Shown: positions 9,926 to 22,112 of the stretch, piece after piece
How positions within the stretch are numbered: position 1 is the stretch's first letter
Layout of the letters: every line of letters starts with the position of its first letter
The notes under the pieces: model-generated
Database searches by the model: none
What the model was told of the DNA's origin: nothing
The model's input: only the letters and a program-made list of their open reading frames with translations
Source of the DNA: a virus
IMG/VR virus record: IMGVR_UViG_3300030060_007048
Location: 1-26,303 of that record
DNA length: 26,303 nt
Reading direction: 5' to 3' (one strand)
Position numbers and translations under genes: made by a program

Positions 9926-12538
9926 ATGTGGCCATTTACAAGCTCACCCCCAACTCTCATTGAAAAGATGGGCAAAATTGAAGGATTTGAAGATGATCTA
10001 GAGAAAGGCGATTACGAAAACTCTGGCATTGACTTAATTGGTCCGGAAGATAAAGAACTTAAAAAAGCGGCTAGTGTTAAAAATGATTTAGCGTCAGCTC
10101 AATTGCCCGAAGAAAGAAGGGCAGTTTTTGAAAAATATTATCCAAATGACAATCCTGATAGATTAGAGGAATTACACAATCTTTCTGAAAACGGAGAATT
10201 TGATTTAGAGGAAGCTCTTGTTGAGTATGATAGAGTCACTTCCCGCGCACGAACAGAGGGCAGAATTCAGACTGCAATCGCAGCAGCGGAAGCCGATGAT
10301 GATTGGGATAACCTCACTGAAGAGCAAAAAGAAGCCAGAAGAAAAACCATTAGAGAACAGGCCGAAAAAGATCAAGAAGCTGTAGAGTCGGGAGATAAAA
10401 CAAACGAATCTGCCGAAGAAGATTTAAAAAAATATGTAGAAGATGAGCTTTCCAAAGCAAACACTTTTGTACATCAAAGTTATTTGTTTCAAAAAATACA
10501 CGATATTAATAAAGAATTGAAAACGAAGAGATTTTTACTTAAACATAAATATTCAAGAGTTCTTGCCGCGTCTGGTAAAAATACCTCACAAAACCCTCTT
10601 GGTACCTTTAGAAATATTAGTAATGCACAAAAGATTTTAAATTTTAGTACCACACAGCTTTCTTTATTAGTCCCTTATATAAGGCTATATAAAGTAAAAA
10701 TAAGCGGCAGCAAAAGAATAGAAATTGAAATACCTTTTCCGACTACCAATACGTCACCCGGTACTGTATTTATGGGTGACAACAATGATACTAACATATT
10801 TTTTAAAAACAGAGCCGGCTTTGGTATAAAATCTTTTGAATGGATCTTACAAGGGCAAGACGAAGTCAATAAGTATGCAGACGTATCTGCTAAATTATCT
10901 TTATTCTTTCAAGACTTTGCTCAACTTGGTGCTAAAAGAAAAAATGGCAAACATAAGTTTTCTTATTTGGATTTACTTGTGGCCCTAAATGATGAAGATA
11001 GTGAAGATCCTAGTGAAAACGTCTATGTAAAAGCTAAAGTAGGATGGTCAGTTCCATCAGAATCAAGTAAATTATTTACGAAAGATCAACTCGATGGTAT
11101 TGCAGCTAATACTTCATCTTTTTTCCTAAACTGCACAGGATATTCATTTGGGTTTGATGAGACAATATCTACTTTCACTTTGGATATAGAATATAATTCC
11201 GGTTTTGAAAGGGTTACAAAAAATAATAAAGTTGGTGCCATATTGCCATCTAAGGAATTGTGCAAAAAAATAAAAGAAACCAATGACGAAATAAAGGCGG
11301 AAAAAGAAGGCGAGCAGGACAAAGGAAAAATTGATGATCTTGATACAAAGCTAAAAAAGATAAAAGAAATATCAATCACCCAATCTTACACTATTATATT
11401 TAGTACCTTGTTGCAGAAAAATTTGATCTACAGGCTTGAGTGCCCCTTGGAAGATATTTTAAATTTTCAAGGAGTCAACCCCGCCCTAACAAAAACTACC
11501 ATAAAGAACCTAGATGGACAGCAAGCCAAGGCCCTTGCAGAAAGCCTAACAGAATGGCGTGACGAGCCAGCCGAAGAGTCGCTAGACTCTGAAGTTATAT
11601 ATTTCGCATATTTTGGAGATATTATGGAGGTCGTCATGTCCAATGCCTTGGACAAAAACAAACTAAAAGCAATAGGATTTAAAGATCCGGGCCTTTCAGA
11701 TAGTTTGTATGGCATCACGACCGACATAAAAATTGGTAAAGAAGAAGTGAATATCGCCAATATACCAATTGATATTACATTATTTTCAAATTGGTTTTAT
11801 ACCGAAGTTATCGAACCCAGCATGGAAACTATCAGCCTTCATGAATTCATGAGAAGGCTTCTGACAAAAGCTATGCAAAATAAGGTAGAGAAATATGAAG
11901 AGATGTATTCGGTAGAAAGAAGAGAATATAAAACGACTTTTGTAGATTCGGACAGTAAAATTGTAGGCGTAAAAGATGCAAAAACCATTCAAAAAAGTTT
12001 TAAAGAAGGCACCGATTATTCTTATTTGGCTATCTATAGCTCTCCAAAATCAAGAGCCACACTGGAGTTGATAGACACCGGTAATTATAGAAAATCCAAA
12101 TTGTATGATATTAGCCAAAGAAAAATACCACACTTTGTTTTTGGGGCCTCTGATAATATAGTGAAATCATGTTCGTTTGATAAGCTTGACATTGCAGGCG
12201 TAAAAGAACACAGAATGATTGATACTCAAGATCCATACGCTTTTTTAGCAAATGTTTTTAACGCAAATTTATCTTTATGGGGTACGACAGTTTTCTTTCC
12301 GGGAAATATTATTTTTATAAACCCTTCTCACTCATTAGGCAACGGAGGCCGCCCATGGAAAGCTGGATCCATATATAATACTATGGGTCTGGGTGGGTAT
12401 CACATGATTACAAATGTCACAAATGCTATTACTGATGGTGTATTTTCCACGTCTTTAACAGCAAGGTATGTGGCCTCCGGCGAAAAACTATCGGATATCA
12501 AGAAAAGAAAGATCGCAAAGAGGGGTAATAAAAAATGA
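9926..12538 (+). CDS. Large baseplate hub-like structural protein
   Basis: An 870-residue protein. Residues about 25-190 are highly charged and helical (Glu-, Lys- and Ala-rich, coiled-coil-like). Beta-rich parts follow, including GTVFMGDNNDTNIFFKNRAG and repeated strand patterns. A second charged helical linker lies near residues 440-480. The C-terminal 120 residues (GTTVFFPGNIIFINPS, then GLGGYHMITNVTNAITDGVF and LTARYVASGEKL) look like the hub domain of gp27/gpD-type proteins, where a final beta module carries a position-sensing strand. A baseplate hub role is inferred from that and from position. The ATG lies five bases after the gp53-like stop, and its stop overlaps the next ATG (ATGA). 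It may also carry a lysis or cargo domain, though none is visible. Confidence 0.65.
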   Translation: MWPFTSSPPTLIEKMGKIEGFEDDLEKGDYENSGIDLIGPEDKELKKAASVKNDLASAQLPEERRAVFEKYYPNDNPDRLEELHNLSENGEFDLEEALVEYDRVTSRARTEGRIQTAIAAAEADDDWDNLTEEQKEARRKTIREQAEKDQEAVESGDKTNESAEEDLKKYVEDELSKANTFVHQSYLFQKIHDINKELKTKRFLLKHKYSRVLAASGKNTSQNPLGTFRNISNAQKILNFSTTQLSLLVPYIRLYKVKISGSKRIEIEIPFPTTNTSPGTVFMGDNNDTNIFFKNRAGFGIKSFEWILQGQDEVNKYADVSAKLSLFFQDFAQLGAKRKNGKHKFSYLDLLVALNDEDSEDPSENVYVKAKVGWSVPSESSKLFTKDQLDGIAANTSSFFLNCTGYSFGFDETISTFTLDIEYNSGFERVTKNNKVGAILPSKELCKKIKETNDEIKAEKEGEQDKGKIDDLDTKLKKIKEISITQSYTIIFSTLLQKNLIYRLECPLEDILNFQGVNPALTKTTIKNLDGQQAKALAESLTEWRDEPAEESLDSEVIYFAYFGDIMEVVMSNALDKNKLKAIGFKDPGLSDSLYGITTDIKIGKEEVNIANIPIDITLFSNWFYTEVIEPSMETISLHEFMRRLLTKAMQNKVEKYEEMYSVERREYKTTFVDSDSKIVGVKDAKTIQKSFKEGTDYSYLAIYSSPKSRATLELIDTGNYRKSKLYDISQRKIPHFVFGASDNIVKSCSFDKLDIAGVKEHRMIDTQDPYAFLANVFNANLSLWGTTVFFPGNIIFINPSHSLGNGGRPWKAGSIYNTMGLGGYHMITNVTNAITDGVFSTSLTARYVASGEKLSDIKKRKIAKRGNKK

Positions 12539-13782
12539 CAGATTACACTATAACTAACTTTACTTCTTTGAAAGATCTTTTTTTGGAAAGAGTTATCTAT
12601 GAAGCTGTGTTCTCATTGCCAATGGATTCGGACAGAGTAGGGCCAGCTAACATAAAGGGTGTAAAAAACTATTGGCATAATGAAAATTTATTTTACGGTA
12701 AAGTCAATAAAAAGTTTCAAGCTATAAAAGTAATGAATATCTCCTTGTCAGCATATGAGTCAGACGGAGAAATATTTCATTTACTGCCAGAAGTAATCCA
12801 ACCATTTGTCCAAATGAAAAATTTGTTCACTTCCAGATATAAAAATGGCCTTCTTAGTGAAGACCCATATCTGAGTGAAATAAAAATTCATAAAGCTTTT
12901 CACAGCGCAGAAATGGATTATGATTCTTACATAACAAAAATTGTAGAAAAATTTAACAATGATCTCATAGGGTCTCAAAAAGATAGCACTGTGAAAACTA
13001 TAAAAGATTATTTTGATTTATTTTTTGAGGAGATTATCGAAAGCAACGAAATAAGCAATTTTAGTAGAACTTCATACTATATGTCTCCAGAGGTATCCTC
13101 ATTATCCTCTGGGTTGTCTTTCGATATATCTCCTCTTAATCCCTCTAAAAACGAAGATAAGCAACTGTTTTTGGATTCTTTTAATTTCGATTTTTATAGA
13201 GAGTCGGCAATAAATTTTGGATTTAATATTAATAAGAATATTCCTTGGAGATTAAGCCTAAACCTTTCCTCGCCGGTTATCAGGCCTCTCTTAGGCTCCG
13301 AGGTATCGGATCCAGTAGAAAACTACCTAAATACTCGATTTTCGAAAACTAGTACCGGAGAGTTACAGTACATAGCATCTGCAATTCTTGTAGGATATAA
13401 CAGCTTTGTTGATAGAAAACCATCGTATCGCGATGGGGTGTGCTTGTTCAAGAGGAAAAAATATGATTTCGATGAGTTGGTGGGCGGAAAATTACCAATA
13501 GGGTATTTTATTAAAAACTATCTGAAAATAAAAAACAAAGAAAACGCCAATCTTTATAACTCATCGGAACTGGAAAAGATATATTTTAACGCCATGGATC
13601 TGAAAGGTCGCCCCGCTTCAAAATATATTCAATCTAAATTTAATTTACCTTATTATTTTAGGGGATCTACGGTTTATAAAAAGGCGCAAAGGCTGTTAGG
13701 AAAAAATAGTGATTTTTCTCTTGACAAATTTGATAAACATGTTAAATTAATAATCAAGAATTCAATCGATAAGATTTATTGA
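12535..13782 (+). CDS. Unknown structural protein at the end of the tail module
   Basis: A 415-residue protein that I do not recognise. It overlaps the preceding hub-like gene by four bases (ATGA), which suggests coupled translation and a linked role. Composition is Phe-, Tyr-, Asn- and Ser-rich, with helical N- and C-terminal parts (LPEVIQPFVQMKNLF near residue 83; YKKAQRLLGKNS near 382) and a beta-like centre around residues 190-270. There are no Cys pairs, signal peptide or transmembrane segments. It is followed seven bases later by the polymerase, so it sits at the border of the tail and replication modules. A virion role is likely from position and overlap only. Confidence 0.7.
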   Translation: MTDYTITNFTSLKDLFLERVIYEAVFSLPMDSDRVGPANIKGVKNYWHNENLFYGKVNKKFQAIKVMNISLSAYESDGEIFHLLPEVIQPFVQMKNLFTSRYKNGLLSEDPYLSEIKIHKAFHSAEMDYDSYITKIVEKFNNDLIGSQKDSTVKTIKDYFDLFFEEIIESNEISNFSRTSYYMSPEVSSLSSGLSFDISPLNPSKNEDKQLFLDSFNFDFYRESAINFGFNINKNIPWRLSLNLSSPVIRPLLGSEVSDPVENYLNTRFSKTSTGELQYIASAILVGYNSFVDRKPSYRDGVCLFKRKKYDFDELVGGKLPIGYFIKNYLKIKNKENANLYNSSELEKIYFNAMDLKGRPASKYIQSKFNLPYYFRGSTVYKKAQRLLGKNSDFSLDKFDKHVKLIIKNSIDKIY

Positions 13783-13789
13783 GGAACTA

Positions 13790-14971
13790 TTGCTGTTTCA
13801 GACATTAGATGATAAAAAACATTGTGTTGGTATATATTCAGACGGAAAGCTTATTTACGATAGCCTCCCTTCGGGGATAAGTCATACGTGGAATTATGCT
13901 TCTTTCTTAAAAGACAGAGAAATTCAGTATGCAAAGATTTATTGTGGAGGAAAGTCCTTAGATGAGGTGTGTCCAGAGGCACTCAAGCCCCGCTGGGAAG
14001 CAGTAAATAATAGATTGGTGGCATTCTATAAATCTTTTAACACTGCCCGTGTATCGCTAAATGAGAACTGTTTTTATGATTTAATTCCCGAAAGAGATAT
14101 TATGGATTGGTGTGTTGTTAAGAACCAAATCTCTCGGTATGTGTTTGAGAATTATAAAAAGCCAGAGAATTACGATTATCTAGTTGAATTGTCCTCTGTG
14201 TTATCAGACATTAAATATAGAAAATTGAATTTGGATCTTAGCTTCCTAAAGCCCTATAAAAACAAGCACGTAAAGCTTAAAAAAACATTAAGATCTTCTC
14301 AGCCATACTGTAAATTTAATATGTGGGGTACAAAGACCGGTCGACTGACCACAATTCGAAGCGGGTTTCCAATATTGACGCTAGATAAAACAATGAGAAG
14401 TATTATAAAACCGCGTAACGATTGTTTCGTAGAATTAGATTTTAACGCGGCAGAACTTAGGACACTGTTGGCCCTACAGAATAAAAAACAGCCAAACGAA
14501 GACATACATGAGTGGAATGTTAAAAATGTTTTCAACAATAGACTTTCCAGAGATGAAGCAAAGAAAAAGATTTTTGCTTGGCTTTACAATCCCGAAAGTC
14601 ACGATTCTCTCTGTGAGCATGCATATGGAAGAGATTCGGTGGTACAAAAGTACTTCACACAGGGCCAAGTGACAACCTTTTGGAACAAAGTTATCCCATC
14701 AGAGAAAAGAACAGCACTAAATTATATCATTCAGTCAACTTGTGCAGAAAATGTTTTAAGACAAATGATTAAGCTATCTAATTATCTAAAAGGTTATAAA
14801 ACACATGTTGCTTTCCCGATCCATGATTCTGTTGTACTGGACTTGTCTTACGAAGAAAAAGAAAAACTGCCAGAATTAGTGGATATTTTCTCAAATACTG
14901 CTCTTGGCAAAATGCGCGTAAATGTAAGTGTCGGGAAAGACTTTGGAAGTCTTAAAAAGTTGGAGTTTTAA
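13790..14971 (+). CDS. Short family A DNA polymerase without a proofreading domain
   Basis: Copies the phage genome. Only the polymerase part is present: TGRLTT at 183-188, motif A DFNAAELR with Asp217 and Glu222, motif B RDEAKKKIF with Arg254, Lys258 and Phe262, NYIIQST around 311-317, and motif C IHDS with His345 and catalytic Asp346. At 393 residues it is far shorter than E. coli Pol I (928) or T7 gp5 (704), and residues 1-150 show no DxE-type exonuclease motif. Motif C has Ser347 where Glu is usual. Phe262 corresponds to E. coli Phe762. The start is TTG at 13790, five bases after GAGGA. The stop directly abuts the FtsZ-like gene. Proofreading, if any, must come from another gene or the host. 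Confidence 0.88.
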   Translation: MLFQTLDDKKHCVGIYSDGKLIYDSLPSGISHTWNYASFLKDREIQYAKIYCGGKSLDEVCPEALKPRWEAVNNRLVAFYKSFNTARVSLNENCFYDLIPERDIMDWCVVKNQISRYVFENYKKPENYDYLVELSSVLSDIKYRKLNLDLSFLKPYKNKHVKLKKTLRSSQPYCKFNMWGTKTGRLTTIRSGFPILTLDKTMRSIIKPRNDCFVELDFNAAELRTLLALQNKKQPNEDIHEWNVKNVFNNRLSRDEAKKKIFAWLYNPESHDSLCEHAYGRDSVVQKYFTQGQVTTFWNKVIPSEKRTALNYIIQSTCAENVLRQMIKLSNYLKGYKTHVAFPIHDSVVLDLSYEEKEKLPELVDIFSNTALGKMRVNVSVGKDFGSLKKLEF

Positions 14972-15799
14972 TTGAATATTATCGGTTTGGGCGACGGTGC
15001 CTGTAAAATAGCAGAATGTTTTTCTAAATATCCTCAATACAAAATTTTTAAAATAAATGTTGACATTGAAGAAAAGAACTGCTATAGTGTACCTAAGATG
15101 AAGACAGCAGAAGAATACGAATCATATGCATATCCAAAAATAAAATCCTTTCTTAAGGGAATTGAGGGGGAAACTATTTTTATTATCGGCGGATCTGGAA
15201 AAATCTCTTGTGGTTCTTTGAAAATAATGGAAAATTTAAAAAACTTACCATTATCTGTTTTATATATTCAACCAGATCTAAGCATGCTCGATAATAAACA
15301 AATAATGCAGGAACGTCTGGTTAGGAATGTCCTACAAGAGTATGCCAGATCTGGCATTTTCGAAAAAATTTGTTTGATTTCTAATAATTGTTTAGATAGT
15401 ATTATAGAAGGCGCGCCAGTTATCGGGTATTATGACGCTTTAAATGAAGTTCTAGTACCATCATTGCATATGATTAATTTCTTCTCTAATAACAAGCCTG
15501 TCGCTGGAGCAATATCAGATCCGAAGAATACTCATCGCATATATACAGTCGGTCTCTTCGATATTGAAAAAAATGAAGAAAAAATGTTTTTTTCTCTTGA
15601 CAACAGTAGAAATAAGTGTTATATTTATGGTATAAGCGAAGAAAAGTTAAAAACAGATAAAAAACTTATGAAAAAAATTAAGCACCAAATTGAAACAAAT
15701 AAAGAAGAGAACTTAGAAGTATCATATGCGATATATTCTACCGATTATGAATATGATATTGGTTATGTTATAGAAAGAACGCCCAATATTCAAAATTAA
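14972..15799 (+). CDS. Divergent FtsZ/tubulin-fold protein
   Basis: A 275-residue protein whose order of segments follows bacterial FtsZ. IIGLGDGACKIAECF (3-17) matches the first glycine loop; YKIFKINVD (23-31) the second strand ending in Asp; TIFIIGGSGKISCGS (68-82) the tubulin signature loop; LSVLYIQPD the next strand; RSGIFEKICLISNNCLDSI (126-144) the helix-strand and 'NDxL' segment; and YYDALNEVL (153-161) the segment before helix H7. The signature GGGTGTG is degraded to GGSGKISCG, so GTP binding or hydrolysis is doubtful. The start is TTG directly after the polymerase stop, with TGGAG upstream. It may form filaments or positioning structures as PhuZ does in jumbo phages, or be a non-polymerising relative. 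It was identified by eye only, so a homology search is essential. Confidence 0.6.
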   Translation: MNIIGLGDGACKIAECFSKYPQYKIFKINVDIEEKNCYSVPKMKTAEEYESYAYPKIKSFLKGIEGETIFIIGGSGKISCGSLKIMENLKNLPLSVLYIQPDLSMLDNKQIMQERLVRNVLQEYARSGIFEKICLISNNCLDSIIEGAPVIGYYDALNEVLVPSLHMINFFSNNKPVAGAISDPKNTHRIYTVGLFDIEKNEEKMFFSLDNSRNKCYIYGISEEKLKTDKKLMKKIKHQIETNKEENLEVSYAIYSTDYEYDIGYVIERTPNIQN

Positions 15800-15886: not shown

Positions 15887-16660
15887 ATGGCATTAGACAT
15901 CGCAAGAATTCGAGCACGACTCGACAATGTAAAAAATAACGGCAAGGCGGGGGGATCCTTCTGGCGACCAAAGGATGGCACACAGGCAATCCGAATTGTA
16001 CCCACACAGGATGGCGACCCTTTCAAGGATTATTGGTTCCACTATAATCTAGGTCCAGACCAAAAAGGCGGCCTCTTATGTCCCAATAAAAATCACGGAG
16101 ATGAGTGTCCGATTTGTAATTTTAAGGACCAACTATGGAAGGAGTTCAACGAAAATAAAGATCCTGACACTATGAAGATGGCCAAAGATCTATCGCCGCG
16201 CCAACGATTCTTTTCACCCGTATTAGTTCGCGGAGAAGAGGCAGACGGAATCCGCATCTGGGGATATGGTAAGGAAGCCTATACTTCTCTGTTGAATCTG
16301 GTTCTTAATCCAGAGTATGGAGATATCACTGATACCGAAGACGGTACAGATCTTAGTTTAACATACGGTAAGCCCCCCGGTGCTCAATTTCCCAAAACAA
16401 CACTGACACCCCGCCGTCGAACAAGTCCTTTATGCGACGATGCTGTGGGTGGTGATGCGGAGTGCGACCGACTTTTGGAAAATATTCCCAAGTTTGATAA
16501 CATTTTCCAAGTCAAGACTCTGGAGGAAGTGCAGGAAGCTTTAGACGGCTTCATCGCATCCCTAGATCCGGAAACTTCAAGTGAAGCTTCGGGTGTTCTA
16601 GAGGTTTCAGAATCGACACCAGATGTCTTGGCCGCTTTTAACGAGCTTTCCGGTAACTAA
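15887..16660 (+). CDS. gp32-like single-stranded DNA-binding protein
   Basis: Coats single-stranded DNA during replication and recombination. The 257 residues begin with a basic LAST-like N-terminus (IARIRARLDNVKNN) and contain the gp32 zinc site: His52, Cys65, Cys74 and Cys77 have spacings of 12, 8 and 2, against 12, 9 and 2 in T4 gp32 (His64, Cys77, Cys87, Cys90). Aromatic residues are frequent in the core (YWFHYN, IWGYGKEAY). The last 50 residues are acidic and Ser-rich, as in gp32, where this tail contacts replication partners. AAAGAGGAG precedes the ATG. The hairpin at 15821-15844 may control translation. A repeat element (16674-16712) follows. Confidence 0.9.
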   Translation: MALDIARIRARLDNVKNNGKAGGSFWRPKDGTQAIRIVPTQDGDPFKDYWFHYNLGPDQKGGLLCPNKNHGDECPICNFKDQLWKEFNENKDPDTMKMAKDLSPRQRFFSPVLVRGEEADGIRIWGYGKEAYTSLLNLVLNPEYGDITDTEDGTDLSLTYGKPPGAQFPKTTLTPRRRTSPLCDDAVGGDAECDRLLENIPKFDNIFQVKTLEEVQEALDGFIASLDPETSSEASGVLEVSESTPDVLAAFNELSGN

Positions 16661-16725: not shown

Positions 16726-17205
16726 ATGACAGAAAATAATACAACAACCGCCAATAATGATTCTAACGTGACTATCCACTATAAGGGGTCTTTGGAGGAC
16801 GGATCCGAGTTCGACAATTCATACACACGGGGGGAACCAATTACAGTAACTTTGGGCTCTGGCCAGCTTATTCCCGGATTTAACGATGCGGTCGTTGGAA
16901 TGACAACAGGCGAGACAAAGACTATCACATTGTCTCCAGAGGACGCATACGGAGAAGTCAACCCAGAAGCAAAAACACAAATCGCAAAATCAAACTTTCC
17001 ATCTGATTTGGAATTAACAACCGGAATGGCTATTCCACTACGAGACCAATTGGGTCGAGTGGCATTAGGAAAGTTGATTGAGCATGATGATGAAAATGTA
17101 ACAATTGACTTGAATCATCCCCTTGCCGGCCAAACCCTGCAGTTTGATATTGAGTTACTTGAGGTAAATACAACAAATTCAACCGATGAGGAAATCGCTA
17201 CCTAA
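16726..17205 (+). CDS. SlyD-like FKBP-type peptidyl-prolyl isomerase
   Basis: Catalyses cis-trans isomerisation of proline peptide bonds and may act as a folding helper. The FKBP fold is clear: VTIHYKGSLEDGSEFDNSY (15-33), LGSGQLIPGFNDAVVGM (43-59) with the Pro50-Gly51-Phe52 turn, LSPEDAYGEV (69-78), and a final strand (LQFDIELLEV). The segment from about residue 78 to 130 is an inserted flap domain as in SlyD. The histidine-rich nickel tail of E. coli SlyD is missing; the C-terminus is Thr- and Glu-rich. ATG start after GAGAGG. It is flanked by copies 1 and 2 of the hairpin repeat, and so may be expressed at a stepped-down level relative to the SSB. Confidence 0.9.
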   Translation: MTENNTTTANNDSNVTIHYKGSLEDGSEFDNSYTRGEPITVTLGSGQLIPGFNDAVVGMTTGETKTITLSPEDAYGEVNPEAKTQIAKSNFPSDLELTTGMAIPLRDQLGRVALGKLIEHDDENVTIDLNHPLAGQTLQFDIELLEVNTTNSTDEEIAT

Positions 17206-18004: not shown

Positions 18005-19138
18005 ATGCCGAGAAAAACAAAATCAGCTGCCGGAAAACTTTCAATGGCAGATATGAGAAGCATGATTAATAAAAAAGCGGGAATGAATGTTGCCCATGAT
18101 TTGAAGGAGGAAAATCCAACAGAAGTAACACAATGGATCCCAACCGGATCTCGTTGGTTAGATTCGATTATTTGCAGAGGCCGATTAGCAGGCATCCCTG
18201 TGGGCAAAGTAACCGAAATCGCCGGCTTAGAATCAACAGGTAAATCATATATGGCCGCTCAAATCGCCGCCAACGCTCAAAAAATGGGTATCGATGTTGT
18301 ATATTTCGACTCTGAATCAGCAATTGATCCTCAATTTTTAGAAAACGCCGGCTGTGATTTATCCAATCTTTTGTATATTCAGGCAACGACCGTAGAATTT
18401 GTATTAGACACAATCGAAGAACTTTTGGCTAGTGAGAATCAATTCTTGTTTATTTGGGATTCACTGGCTATGACCCCCACAGAAAGAGTGGCAGAAGGCG
18501 ATTTTAATCCTAATTCTTCTGTCGCAGTAAAAGCTCGTGTCTTGTCCGTTGGAACAAAAAAGTTGACAATTCCAATTGCGAATACAAAATCGACGTTTCT
18601 AGTCCTTAATCAGCTTAAGACAAACATCCATACCGGCCCTAATGCACATATTCAAGCTATGGTAAATCCTTGGAATACTCCGGGTGGAAAAGCCATGCAC
18701 TATGTATATTCATTACGAATTTGGCTCACTGGCCGTAAGGCAAAATCTGCTTATGTCTTAGACGAAAATGGATTTAGGATTGGCTCTGAAGTAAAAGTAA
18801 AACTAGAAAAATCTCGCTTTGGAACAGCAGGACGCAATTGCCACTTTAGAATCCTGTGGGCAGGCATCGACGTTGCAATTCAAGATGATGAATCATTATT
18901 CGATGCCGTCAAGGGGTCTGAAAAAATCTTACAATCTGGTGCTTGGTACACCATGGTCTTTGACGACGGAGCAACAGAAAAGTTCCAAGCCTCGAAGTGG
19001 GTTGAGAAGATAAAGGATGATAAGTTTCGTCAGCAGGTTTATAAGATCATGGATGAAGAGGTGATTATGAAGTTTGATGAAAGACTGGGTAACGCCTCTG
19101 ACTTTTATGATGATGAGGAGGTAGAAAGCACTAGTTAG
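18005..19138 (+). CDS. RecA/UvsX-type recombinase
   Basis: Forms filaments on single-stranded DNA and performs strand exchange in recombination-dependent replication and repair. At 377 residues it has Walker A GLESTGKS (74-81), a YFDSESAIDPQF segment (100-111), Walker B FLFIWDS with Asp152, and the DNA-binding loop 2 region LNQLKTNIHTGPNAHIQ with NTPGGKAM downstream (about 201-230). The catalytic Glu is provided by the DSESA segment. The C-terminus is acidic and Ser-rich. ATG start after AAGGAG. It is closer in length to T4 UvsX (391) and E. coli RecA (352) than to archaeal forms. Expression depends on readthrough of the terminator at 17966-17993. Confidence 0.93.
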   Translation: MPRKTKSAAGKLSMADMRSMINKKAGMNVAHDLKEENPTEVTQWIPTGSRWLDSIICRGRLAGIPVGKVTEIAGLESTGKSYMAAQIAANAQKMGIDVVYFDSESAIDPQFLENAGCDLSNLLYIQATTVEFVLDTIEELLASENQFLFIWDSLAMTPTERVAEGDFNPNSSVAVKARVLSVGTKKLTIPIANTKSTFLVLNQLKTNIHTGPNAHIQAMVNPWNTPGGKAMHYVYSLRIWLTGRKAKSAYVLDENGFRIGSEVKVKLEKSRFGTAGRNCHFRILWAGIDVAIQDDESLFDAVKGSEKILQSGAWYTMVFDDGATEKFQASKWVEKIKDDKFRQQVYKIMDEEVIMKFDERLGNASDFYDDEEVESTS

Positions 19139-19749: not shown

Positions 19750-20712
19750 ATGACTAAAAGATTAATGGTAATTGATGCGCTAAACGCATACTTTAGGGGC
19801 TACATTGTCGACCCTAGTATGTCCTTAAATGGTGATCCAATCGGGGGCTATAAAGGGTTTATAAAAATTCTGCAAAAACTATGCAGAGAGATGAAGCCAG
19901 ACGAAGTGATCATTGCATGGGATGGTGCCGGAGGATCCCAGAAGAGAAAGGCGACAAATAAAAATTACAAAGCCGGCAGAAAACCAATTAGATTGAATCG
20001 ATCAGTTAAAATACTCACAGAAGATGAAGAAATGCACAACCGGGTTTGGCAGCAGACTCGACTAATGGAAATGCTTAACTTTATGCCATTCATCCAAATT
20101 GTAAGCGACGGCGTAGAAGCAGATGATGTTATTTCCTACGTCGTACAAAATAAGAAGTATCGAGGTTGGCAAAAGGTCATTGTTTCCAGCGATAAAGACT
20201 TTTTTCAGTTATGTGATGACGAAACAATTTTATACCGCCCAATACAGAAGACTTTTGTAAATAAACCCAGAATTTTGGAAGAAAGTGGAATTCATCCTAC
20301 GAATTATGCTTTAGCTAGAGCAATCGATGGGGATAAATCGGACAACCTAAAGGGAGTCTATGGGGTCGGCTTGGGCAAAATAGCGAAAAAAATGTCTTTC
20401 TTTGGAGATTCAACATTCGTGACTTTCGATGATCTTTTCGATTTTTGCAAAAATGATCCAACAGGGCTTAAAATGTTTCAATCAATTTTGGAAAATGAGG
20501 ATTTAATTAGGGAAAATTATAGCATTATGCAGCTTTATTCTCCTACAATGTCAATCCAAACAAAAAGTAAAATAGAATACACTTTAGAGACTTTTGAGCC
20601 CGAATTTAATAAGACGGAAATAATTAAACGAATGCAGGAGGACGGCTTCGGCGACAAATGGAACCCGTCAGATATTTTTGCTACTTGCAAAAGAATTTCA
20701 AGTAATACTTGA
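19750..20712 (+). CDS. FEN-type 5'-3' exonuclease
   Basis: Removes RNA primers and 5' flaps during lagging-strand synthesis. The 320 residues carry the metal-binding acidic residues of the family: Asp9 in MVIDALNAYFRG, Asp58 in IIAWDG, Glu123/Asp125/Asp126 in VEADDVI, Asp148 and Asp150 in SSDKDFFQL, and Asp195 and Asp198 in GDKSDNLKGVYGVG, which begins a helix-hairpin-helix. The length is close to T4 RNase H (305) and T5 FEN (291). It supplies the 5' nuclease activity that the short polymerase lacks. ATG after TCGGAG. Its stop codon lies inside the -35 box of the next promoter. Confidence 0.92.
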   Translation: MTKRLMVIDALNAYFRGYIVDPSMSLNGDPIGGYKGFIKILQKLCREMKPDEVIIAWDGAGGSQKRKATNKNYKAGRKPIRLNRSVKILTEDEEMHNRVWQQTRLMEMLNFMPFIQIVSDGVEADDVISYVVQNKKYRGWQKVIVSSDKDFFQLCDDETILYRPIQKTFVNKPRILEESGIHPTNYALARAIDGDKSDNLKGVYGVGLGKIAKKMSFFGDSTFVTFDDLFDFCKNDPTGLKMFQSILENEDLIRENYSIMQLYSPTMSIQTKSKIEYTLETFEPEFNKTEIIKRMQEDGFGDKWNPSDIFATCKRISSNT

Positions 20713-20737
20713 CAAAATCTTCTTAGCATATTATAAT
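20709..20737 (+). promoter_or_regulatory. Consensus sigma70 promoter of the helicase gene
   Basis: TTGACA at 20709-20714, a 17-base spacer and TATAAT at 20732-20737: an exact match to the sigma70 consensus at the best spacing. Transcription should start near 20744, only about 13 bases before the helicase ATG, with GGAGGG at 20748-20753 between. The -35 box overlaps the stop of the FEN gene. Confidence 0.9.
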
Positions 20738-20756
20738 ATTACTTATCGGAGGGTAA

Positions 20757-22112
20757 ATGTCTAAAGAGGATTTTAGTCGTTATGGAAAAGGTTTTCAAGA
20801 AAGTTTATGTCACTTAATCATGGTCGATAGACCATTTGCTGATCAGATGTTTGAGGTGTTAGACATAAATTTTTTAGAACTAAAATATTTGCAAGTTTTT
20901 GTAAAATTAGTCAGAGATTATAGAGAAAGTTATTCTACGCATCCTAGTGAAGATATAATGAAATCCGTGATAAGATCCCAATTAGGTGCAGAATTAGACT
21001 CGGTACAGAGGCAGGTTAGGGATTTTTATGCTAGAATATTTCGAACCAACATAGATGATTCTGAATATATTAAGTCGACTTCTTTAGATTTTTGCCGTAA
21101 GCAGAATCTAAAGGGGGCAATGCTTAAGTCTGTAAAATTGCTGGAAAGTCTCTCCTTTGATGAGATCTCCAATGTTATAAATGATGCAATCAAACTCGGT
21201 TCAGATTCTAATTTCGGTCACGATTATATTGTGGATTTTGAGAAGAGATTTGAACTTAAGACGAGAAATCCCACCGCCACCGGGTGGCCAGAAATAGATG
21301 CAATCACCCACCAAGGTCTCGGAATAGGAGAATTGGGTGTAGTAATCGCACCCACCGGAGCAGGAAAGAGTATGGCATTGGTGCATCTAGGTGCCCAAGC
21401 ATTACTGGCGGGTAAAAATGTAGTATATTATACACTAGAGCTTTCCGAAACGGTAGTGGGCAAAAGGTTTGATAGTTGTATAACAAACGTGCCCCTAGAT
21501 TCTTTGCGTCCTTTTAAAGAGGAGATCTATGAAAAGATCCAAAATCTCGAAGGAAGATTGGTGGTAAAAGAGTATCCAACAAAGTCTTCTTCGGTCGTTA
21601 CCTTGAAAAATCATTTAGAAAAAATGTTAAACAGGGGCTTTAAGCCCGATGTCATTATCGTCGATTATGCAGACCTTTTACGCCCATCTTCAATTTTAAG
21701 AGAGAAAAGACACGAATTGGAGACTATTTATGAACAGCTTCGCGGTTTGGCGCAAGAACTACAATGCTGTTTGTGGACTGCTAGTCAAACTAATCGTTCC
21801 GGTTTGAACGCCGAAGTAATCACAATGGAATCTATTAGTGAGGCTTTTAATAAATGTTTTGTGGCAGATTTTATCATTTCAATTTCTAGAACAGCGGAAG
21901 ATAAAATAAACAACCAAGGAAGAGTATTTATCGCCAAAAACAGAAACGGCCAAGATGGACTAATATTTCCCATATATATGAACACCTCGAACATCACAAT
22001 CAAGGTGCTTCCAAACACGGGAGAAACAATTGGTGAAGTTCAAAAGGATGCTAAGAAGAGGCAGGAGCAGAAGCTCGTAAAACTTTATAAGAAAAACAAG
22101 GAGAAAAATTAA
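20757..22112 (+). CDS. DnaB/gp41-type replicative helicase
   Basis: Hexameric 5'-3' helicase that unwinds the fork. The N-terminal 160 residues are helical and match the DnaB primase-interacting region in size. The RecA-like core has Walker A APTGAGKS (198-205), a YYTLELSE segment (224-231) for the H1a region, Walker B VIIVDYADLL with Asp303, and WTASQTNR (about 338-345) for the sensor segment. RTAEDKINNQGRVFIAKNRNG resembles the arginine-finger strand region. 451 residues is near E. coli DnaB (471) and T4 gp41 (475). It is first in a unit with its own consensus promoter, and is followed one base later by the reductase start. No primase is seen in the window. Confidence 0.93.
   Translation: MSKEDFSRYGKGFQESLCHLIMVDRPFADQMFEVLDINFLELKYLQVFVKLVRDYRESYSTHPSEDIMKSVIRSQLGAELDSVQRQVRDFYARIFRTNIDDSEYIKSTSLDFCRKQNLKGAMLKSVKLLESLSFDEISNVINDAIKLGSDSNFGHDYIVDFEKRFELKTRNPTATGWPEIDAITHQGLGIGELGVVIAPTGAGKSMALVHLGAQALLAGKNVVYYTLELSETVVGKRFDSCITNVPLDSLRPFKEEIYEKIQNLEGRLVVKEYPTKSSSVVTLKNHLEKMLNRGFKPDVIIVDYADLLRPSSILREKRHELETIYEQLRGLAQELQCCLWTASQTNRSGLNAEVITMESISEAFNKCFVADFIISISRTAEDKINNQGRVFIAKNRNGQDGLIFPIYMNTSNITIKVLPNTGETIGEVQKDAKKRQEQKLVKLYKKNKEKN

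Follow-up and report, generated by a model that had tools for sequence, protein, structure and literature searches.

A predicted tubulin-fold protein encoded in the DNA-replication gene cluster of uncultured T4-type phages

A large group of uncultured T4-type viruses of microbes carries, inside its DNA-replication gene cluster, a small protein predicted to fold like tubulin and FtsZ, the filament proteins of microtubules and bacterial cell division. The protein, which we call TUB, keeps the residues at the guanine-recognising positions but lacks the usual GTP-splitting loop, hinting at a stable scaffold tied to viral DNA replication. The assignment of the fold is near certain, whereas the function is inferred. 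We found relatives of TUB in more than 500 viral contigs, always beside a PolA-like polymerase gene wherever this could be tested, but neither in 50,697 phage records nor in 84,980 prokaryote genomes.

Results

The gene and its surroundings

The analysed stretch of DNA (the window) is an IMG/VR record of 26,303 bases, and its host is not known. The features discussed below are as follows.

12535-13782, plus strand: ORF415, protein of unknown function without a PHROG or Pfam match, conserved across the lineage, always immediately upstream of POL in the loci examined
13790-14971, plus strand: POL, 393-aa family A DNA polymerase (palm/fingers, no exonuclease domain recognised; PF00476, E 1.5e-15; phrog_17, 3.1e-20)
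14972-15799, plus strand: TUB, predicted tubulin/FtsZ-fold protein, 275 aa, TTG start
14984-15007, plus strand: T1 glycine loop of TUB, residues 5-12 (GLGDGACK; family GLGxAGC)
15188-15214, plus strand: equivalent of the T4 signature loop, residues 73-81 (GGSGKISCG; family G-S/A/G-G-x-I/V-S-G/C)
15335-15352, plus strand: QEYARS, residues 122-127, at the end of predicted helix H5, near-invariant and specific to this family
15383-15394, plus strand: T6 segment NNCL, residues 138-141, with N138 corresponding to FtsZ N165 (base contact)
15428-15487, plus strand: predicted core helix H7, residues 153-172, with Y154 (FtsZ F182) and N158 (FtsZ N186)
15488-15538, plus strand: loop in place of T7 and H8, residues 173-189, without an NxDxxD motif
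15539-15781, plus strand: C-terminal domain, residues 190-270, predicted strands and one helix as in FtsZ but without H8/H9
15887-16660, plus strand: SSB, gp32-like single-strand DNA-binding protein (phrog_1192, 1.2e-26; PF08804, 4.8e-13)
18005-19138, plus strand: UvsX-like recombinase (phrog_97, 7.1e-57)
19750-22112, plus strand: exonuclease (19750-20712; phrog_107, 4.4e-27) and DnaB/gp41-like helicase (20757-22112; phrog_19, 1.1e-75) of the same replication cluster

In addition, a 159-aa ORF downstream of SSB (16726-17205) reads by eye, without a search, like an FKBP/SlyD-type prolyl isomerase; its homologues occur in many but not all relatives between SSB and UvsX.

The preliminary description, based on by-eye alignment, had pointed to a divergent FtsZ/tubulin-like gene at 14972-15799, with segments in FtsZ order and an altered signature loop at residues 73-81, and this observation proved correct. 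The ORF is present, GGSGKISCG occupies exactly residues 73-81, and the order of segments (glycine loop, S2, T4-like loop, T6 NNCL, H7) is confirmed both by profile-profile alignment and by predicted secondary structure. The polymerase stop codon TAA lies at 14969-14971 and the TTG start at 14972, so that the gap is zero. A GGAG Shine-Dalgarno-like element is located just upstream, and the start is credible, since the closest relatives have ATG at the same place behind a GGAGG-type element.

The gene is real and widespread. A single-sequence search of IMG/VR gave 29 homologous loci at 34-78% identity, and two alignment-based searches gave at least 548 and at least 583 confirmed relatives. Among close relatives dN is 0.05-0.14 against a dS of about 1-2, and 34 columns are invariant in an alignment of 22 members. 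On the other hand, no homologue was found in 50,697 phage records or, by pattern search plus tblastn, in 84,980 prokaryote species genomes. Six T4-type phage contigs of 114-186 kb carry exactly one TUB each.

Predicted fold

Structure prediction with a fold search, together with profile comparison, had been proposed at the outset as the way to test the tubulin assignment, and both supported it. With 22 sequences AlphaFold2 gave a pLDDT of 78.7; with 85 sequences it gave 96.0 and a pTM of 0.92, the five models lying between 95.0 and 96.0. The order of elements is that of FtsZ: S1-H1-S2-S3-short helices-S4-H4-S5-H5-S6-H6-H7, followed by a C-terminal domain of strands and one helix; the two domains are joined by the long core helix H7. 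A Foldseek search of the PDB returned FtsZ or TubZ in all 50 best rows for both models (TM(query) 0.62-0.73; E 9.5e-13 to 2.4e-11 for the 85-sequence model). Independently of any model, profile-profile comparison (hhalign) with 11 FtsZ sequences gave E-values of 2.1e-5 for the 22-sequence profile and 5.5e-5 for the 85-sequence profile, collinear from T1 to H7. The same comparison with 16 other protein families of these genomes gave 0.04-0.78, and with the column-reversed TUB profile 0.22. However, a looser, automatically built TUB profile (untrimmed ORFs) aligned over the same region only at E 0.023, so the result depends somewhat on alignment quality.

The homology is remote and is detected only by profile-profile and fold comparison. 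Plain sequence and profile-sequence searches of PDB chains gave no significant FtsZ match (best FtsZ E 0.97), and no PHROG, Pfam or NCBIfam family was found above threshold. The Pfam tubulin family PF00091 reached at best E 0.0012, in 3 of 22 members, and none exceeded its curated cut-off in 10 contigs. A strong match to an unrelated Rossmann family had been set out in advance as grounds for abandoning the assignment. We did find weak Pfam matches to TrkA_N (22 of 85 members, best 6e-5) and to the saccharopine-dehydrogenase NADP domain (Sacchrp_dh_NADP). Yet in the members inspected these cover only 24-72 residues, sit at two inconsistent places (residues 2-31 or 65-136) and stay below the Pfam cut-offs.

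Nucleotide site

Through the hhalign alignment, in which the T6 segment pairs with FtsZ IPNDKL, N138 pairs with E. coli FtsZ N165, residue 154 with F182 and N158 with N186. These are the places of tubulin N206, Y224 and N228, which hold the guanine base, as is established for tubulin and FtsZ but was not tested here. In 121 non-redundant members they are Asn in 98% (118 of 121), aromatic or His in 98% and Asn in 98%, respectively. In T1, G5 and G7 are invariant, A9 is found in 95% and G10 in 98% of the 121 members; the window departs from its own family in having the two small residues swapped (G9-A10, GLGDGAC instead of GLGxAGC). The phosphate-binding signature T4, GGGTGTG in FtsZ and [SAG]GGTG[SAT]G in the superfamily, is degraded to GSGx[IV]S[GC], with Ile or Val at the position of FtsZ G109; in the window it is GGSGKISCG at residues 73-81, which hhalign aligns to FtsZ GGGTGTG. 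After H7, where FtsZ has T7 (NxDFAD) and H8, the family has a loop lacking the catalytic NxDxxD motif across the 121 relatives. This loop has no conserved acid: its most acidic column, residue 186, reaches 66% and is Asn in the window. Since hhalign stops at H7, the statement on T7 rests on position in the model and on the family alignment. Thus, guanine recognition looks retained, phosphate contacts weakened and the usual trans-hydrolysis absent, although neither polymerisation nor GTP hydrolysis was assayed. The QEYARS segment, which is not shared with FtsZ, is conserved at 89-100% per column in the 121 members.

Gene order

TUB and POL are locked side by side but are separate ORFs, so the preliminary description of a head-to-tail fusion does not hold; the two genes abut in the window and may be translationally coupled. 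In the window they happen to lie in the same frame, but across 127 non-redundant loci all three frame offsets occur (32/42/53) and the spacing runs from overlap to more than 400 bp, which also rules out conserved readthrough. TUB directly follows POL in 186 of 186 loci having POL and enough sequence downstream, including 38 of 38 loci fetched with POL as bait. In 153 of 153 loci with enough sequence upstream, POL precedes TUB, and in 163 of 168 the gp32-like SSB follows within 3 kb; the other five have longer inserts but keep the order. In an independent set fetched with SSB as bait, 27 of 27 loci with enough upstream sequence contain TUB.

The phages and their polymerases

Three contigs of 183.9-185.6 kb have T4-type terminase, portal, prohead protease, capsid, sheath and gp13 by phmmer with T4 proteins, as well as a gp41-like helicase, while T4 gp43, gp44, gp45, gp62, gp46, gp47 and gp61 were not found. 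The T4-type sliding clamp PF02916 had no match in six large contigs; other clamp types were not searched. One of the three contigs encodes a bacterial-type PolIII-alpha with a PHP domain, and the other two have its homologue. This polymerase is 1141 aa long (453-3875 of L248, one of the loci examined). POL keeps its catalytic residues (D217, R254, K258, H345 and D346 are invariant in 41 sequences) but, at 393 aa, is a truncated enzyme and a second polymerase in those genomes. It is probably not the main replicase, since near-full-length relatives also encode PolIII-alpha, the likelier one, and the link of TUB to the polymerase holds for gene order, not necessarily for the main replicase. In contig G012, a relative, PolIII-alpha and the ribonucleotide reductase (45416-50216 and 60444-63639, minus strand; loci L264-L266) are each split into two ORFs about 1.0 kb and 0.75 kb apart, suggesting inteins or introns. 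Relatives (loci L246-L250 of contig G001) also carry a GroEL-type chaperonin, IMP dehydrogenase, ThyX, Clp protease and a eukaryotic-type phosphomannomutase.

Discussion

Given these results, the interpretation offered in the preliminary description is partly supported. The tubulin/FtsZ fold is strongly supported by two methods, the altered T4 signature is real and the suggested loss of GTP turnover fits the absence of the T7 motif. Coupling to DNA synthesis holds as a conserved gene neighbourhood, while the proposed filament, DNA-positioning or scaffold roles are inference.

Our preferred, though tentative, explanation is that TUB is a new, phage-specific family of the tubulin/FtsZ superfamily, belonging to the replication cluster of a widespread uncultured T4-type myovirus lineage and serving as a scaffold. 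What the computations themselves establish is the tubulin fold, the conserved guanine-base pocket, the degraded phosphate signature, the missing T7 motif and a single-copy core gene fixed between a PolA-like polymerase and a gp32-like SSB; nucleotide binding, assembly, contact with partners and the role in replication we infer. In this view, TUB binds GTP or GDP and stacks into oligomers or protofilaments that turn over slowly or not at all, because the neighbouring subunit cannot supply the usual catalytic acid. Made together with SSB, UvsX and the polymerase, it would gather or position the replication centre, perhaps through the near-invariant QEYARS segment of H5 and the C-terminal domain contacting a replication protein. 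However, there is no experiment behind this view and no evidence yet for polymerisation. Nucleotide binding is read from base-pocket residues while T4 is degraded, so binding may be weak or lost. In addition, gene neighbourhood shows co-inheritance, not physical contact, and the adjacent polymerase may not be the replicase. A bolder version, which we consider unlikely but not excluded, is that of a universal, hydrolysis-deficient tubulin hard-wired into the replication cluster of an abundant T4-type phage lineage and forming static guanine-nucleotide-bound filaments or shells that build the replication compartment, a replication organiser of a kind not described in T4-type phages.

Of the alternatives, each less likely than the scaffold, a non-polymerising replisome adaptor survives best. 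Here the tubulin fold would work as a nucleotide-sensing or purely structural subunit binding POL, SSB or UvsX as a monomer or dimer. The fixed place between POL and SSB, the degraded T4 and absent T7, and the family-specific QEYARS patch are in line with this possibility. On the other hand, the strictly kept base pocket fits a nucleotide switch or polymer better than a dead fold, and there are no interaction data. Less likely still is a dynamic cytomotive filament like PhuZ or TubZ that centres or moves phage DNA or capsids, hydrolysing GTP with a relocated catalytic acid, for example in the conserved EKNEEK segment (residues 199-204). The shared fold, the base pocket and E203, acidic in 89% of members, speak for it, and PhuZ of phiKZ centres phage DNA (PMC4244570). 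Against it are the absence of NxDxxD, the lack of any acidic column above 66% in the loop replacing T7 and the lack of detectable profile similarity to phiKZ PhuZ. Also unlikely is a decoy that co-assembles with or caps host FtsZ to block host division, in the manner of the phage anti-FtsZ proteins lambda Kil and T5 Hdi but with an FtsZ-like body. FtsZ is the nearest solved fold and phages do target FtsZ (PMC3961180, PMC10714956), but identity to FtsZ is only about 12%, and TUB is a core gene, always within the replication cluster and under strong purifying selection, whereas division inhibitors are usually small variable accessory genes. Finally, a divergent NAD(P)-type Rossmann protein whose GxGxxG strand-helix resembles FtsZ is very unlikely, since the Pfam matches behind it are partial and inconsistently placed, the full-length model matches FtsZ/TubZ in all 50 top rows, and H7 and the C-terminal domain are tubulin-like.

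Described phage tubulins come mainly from phiKZ-type jumbo phages and a few partition systems, where they are dynamic GTPases. In the present case the superfamily appears as an apparently universal, single-copy gene of a large uncultured T4-type lineage, inside the replication cluster, with the base pocket kept and the catalytic loop gone. We found no paper on a tubulin in T4-type phages in the open-access literature searched, and a survey of 224 jumbo phages speaks of two distinct FtsZ/tubulin representatives. If TUB binds nucleotide and assembles, it would show that a tubulin-fold protein can serve viral DNA replication without GTP turnover, and it would let one ask directly whether T4-type phages organise their replication centres with a cytoskeletal protein of their own.

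Relation to known systems

The lineage resembles the Far-T4 phages (PMC4360716) in having T4-type virion genes with a divergent replication module, in being uncultured and in the presence of phoH. Membership in a Far-T4 clade was not tested, and the Far-T4 paper mentions neither FtsZ nor tubulin. The FtsZl1 and FtsZl2 families (PMC2875224) are likewise divergent families of the same superfamily found by profile methods; they are cellular, with a membrane-remodelling gene context, and were not compared with TUB by sequence. Among predicted viral structures the best fold match is A0A6J5RW92, a much longer protein (452 aa) annotated as FtsZ from an uncultured Caudovirales phage (E 1.7e-13, TM(query) 0.79, 16% identity), whose sequence and genome context were not examined.

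TUB belongs to the tubulin/FtsZ superfamily by fold and profile similarity, but we do not file it as PhuZ, TubZ or FtsZ. PhuZ of nucleus-forming jumbo phages is also a phage-encoded tubulin-fold protein, yet it has a catalytic Asp in T7 (PMC3678025), and hhalign of TUB with phiKZ PhuZ, a single sequence, gave only E 0.094, out of register. No PhuZ relatives were found in IMG/VR with phiKZ PhuZ as query, so that no PhuZ profile could be built. The relatives of TUB have T4-type genomes of about 165-186 kb with T4-type terminase, portal, capsid and sheath, but since the nuclear shell protein was not searched for directly, these observations do not settle the question of a phiKZ-type genome with a shell. 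TubZ, the plasmid and phage partition tubulin, shares the fold (Foldseek E about 7e-12, TM(query) 0.67-0.72). TUB is much smaller and has neither the long C-terminal extension nor the catalytic loop motif; no partition genes were recognised next to it in the window, although TubR and the iterons of tubC were not specifically sought. Finally, TUB shares with FtsZ, the bacterial and archaeal cell-division GTPase, the fold, the order of elements and aligned T1, T6 and H7 base-contact positions. It differs from FtsZ in having only about 12% identity over the structural match, a degraded T4, no T7 NxDxxD or H8, a length of 275 aa with no C-terminal tail, and a place in a viral replication cluster instead of the division cluster.
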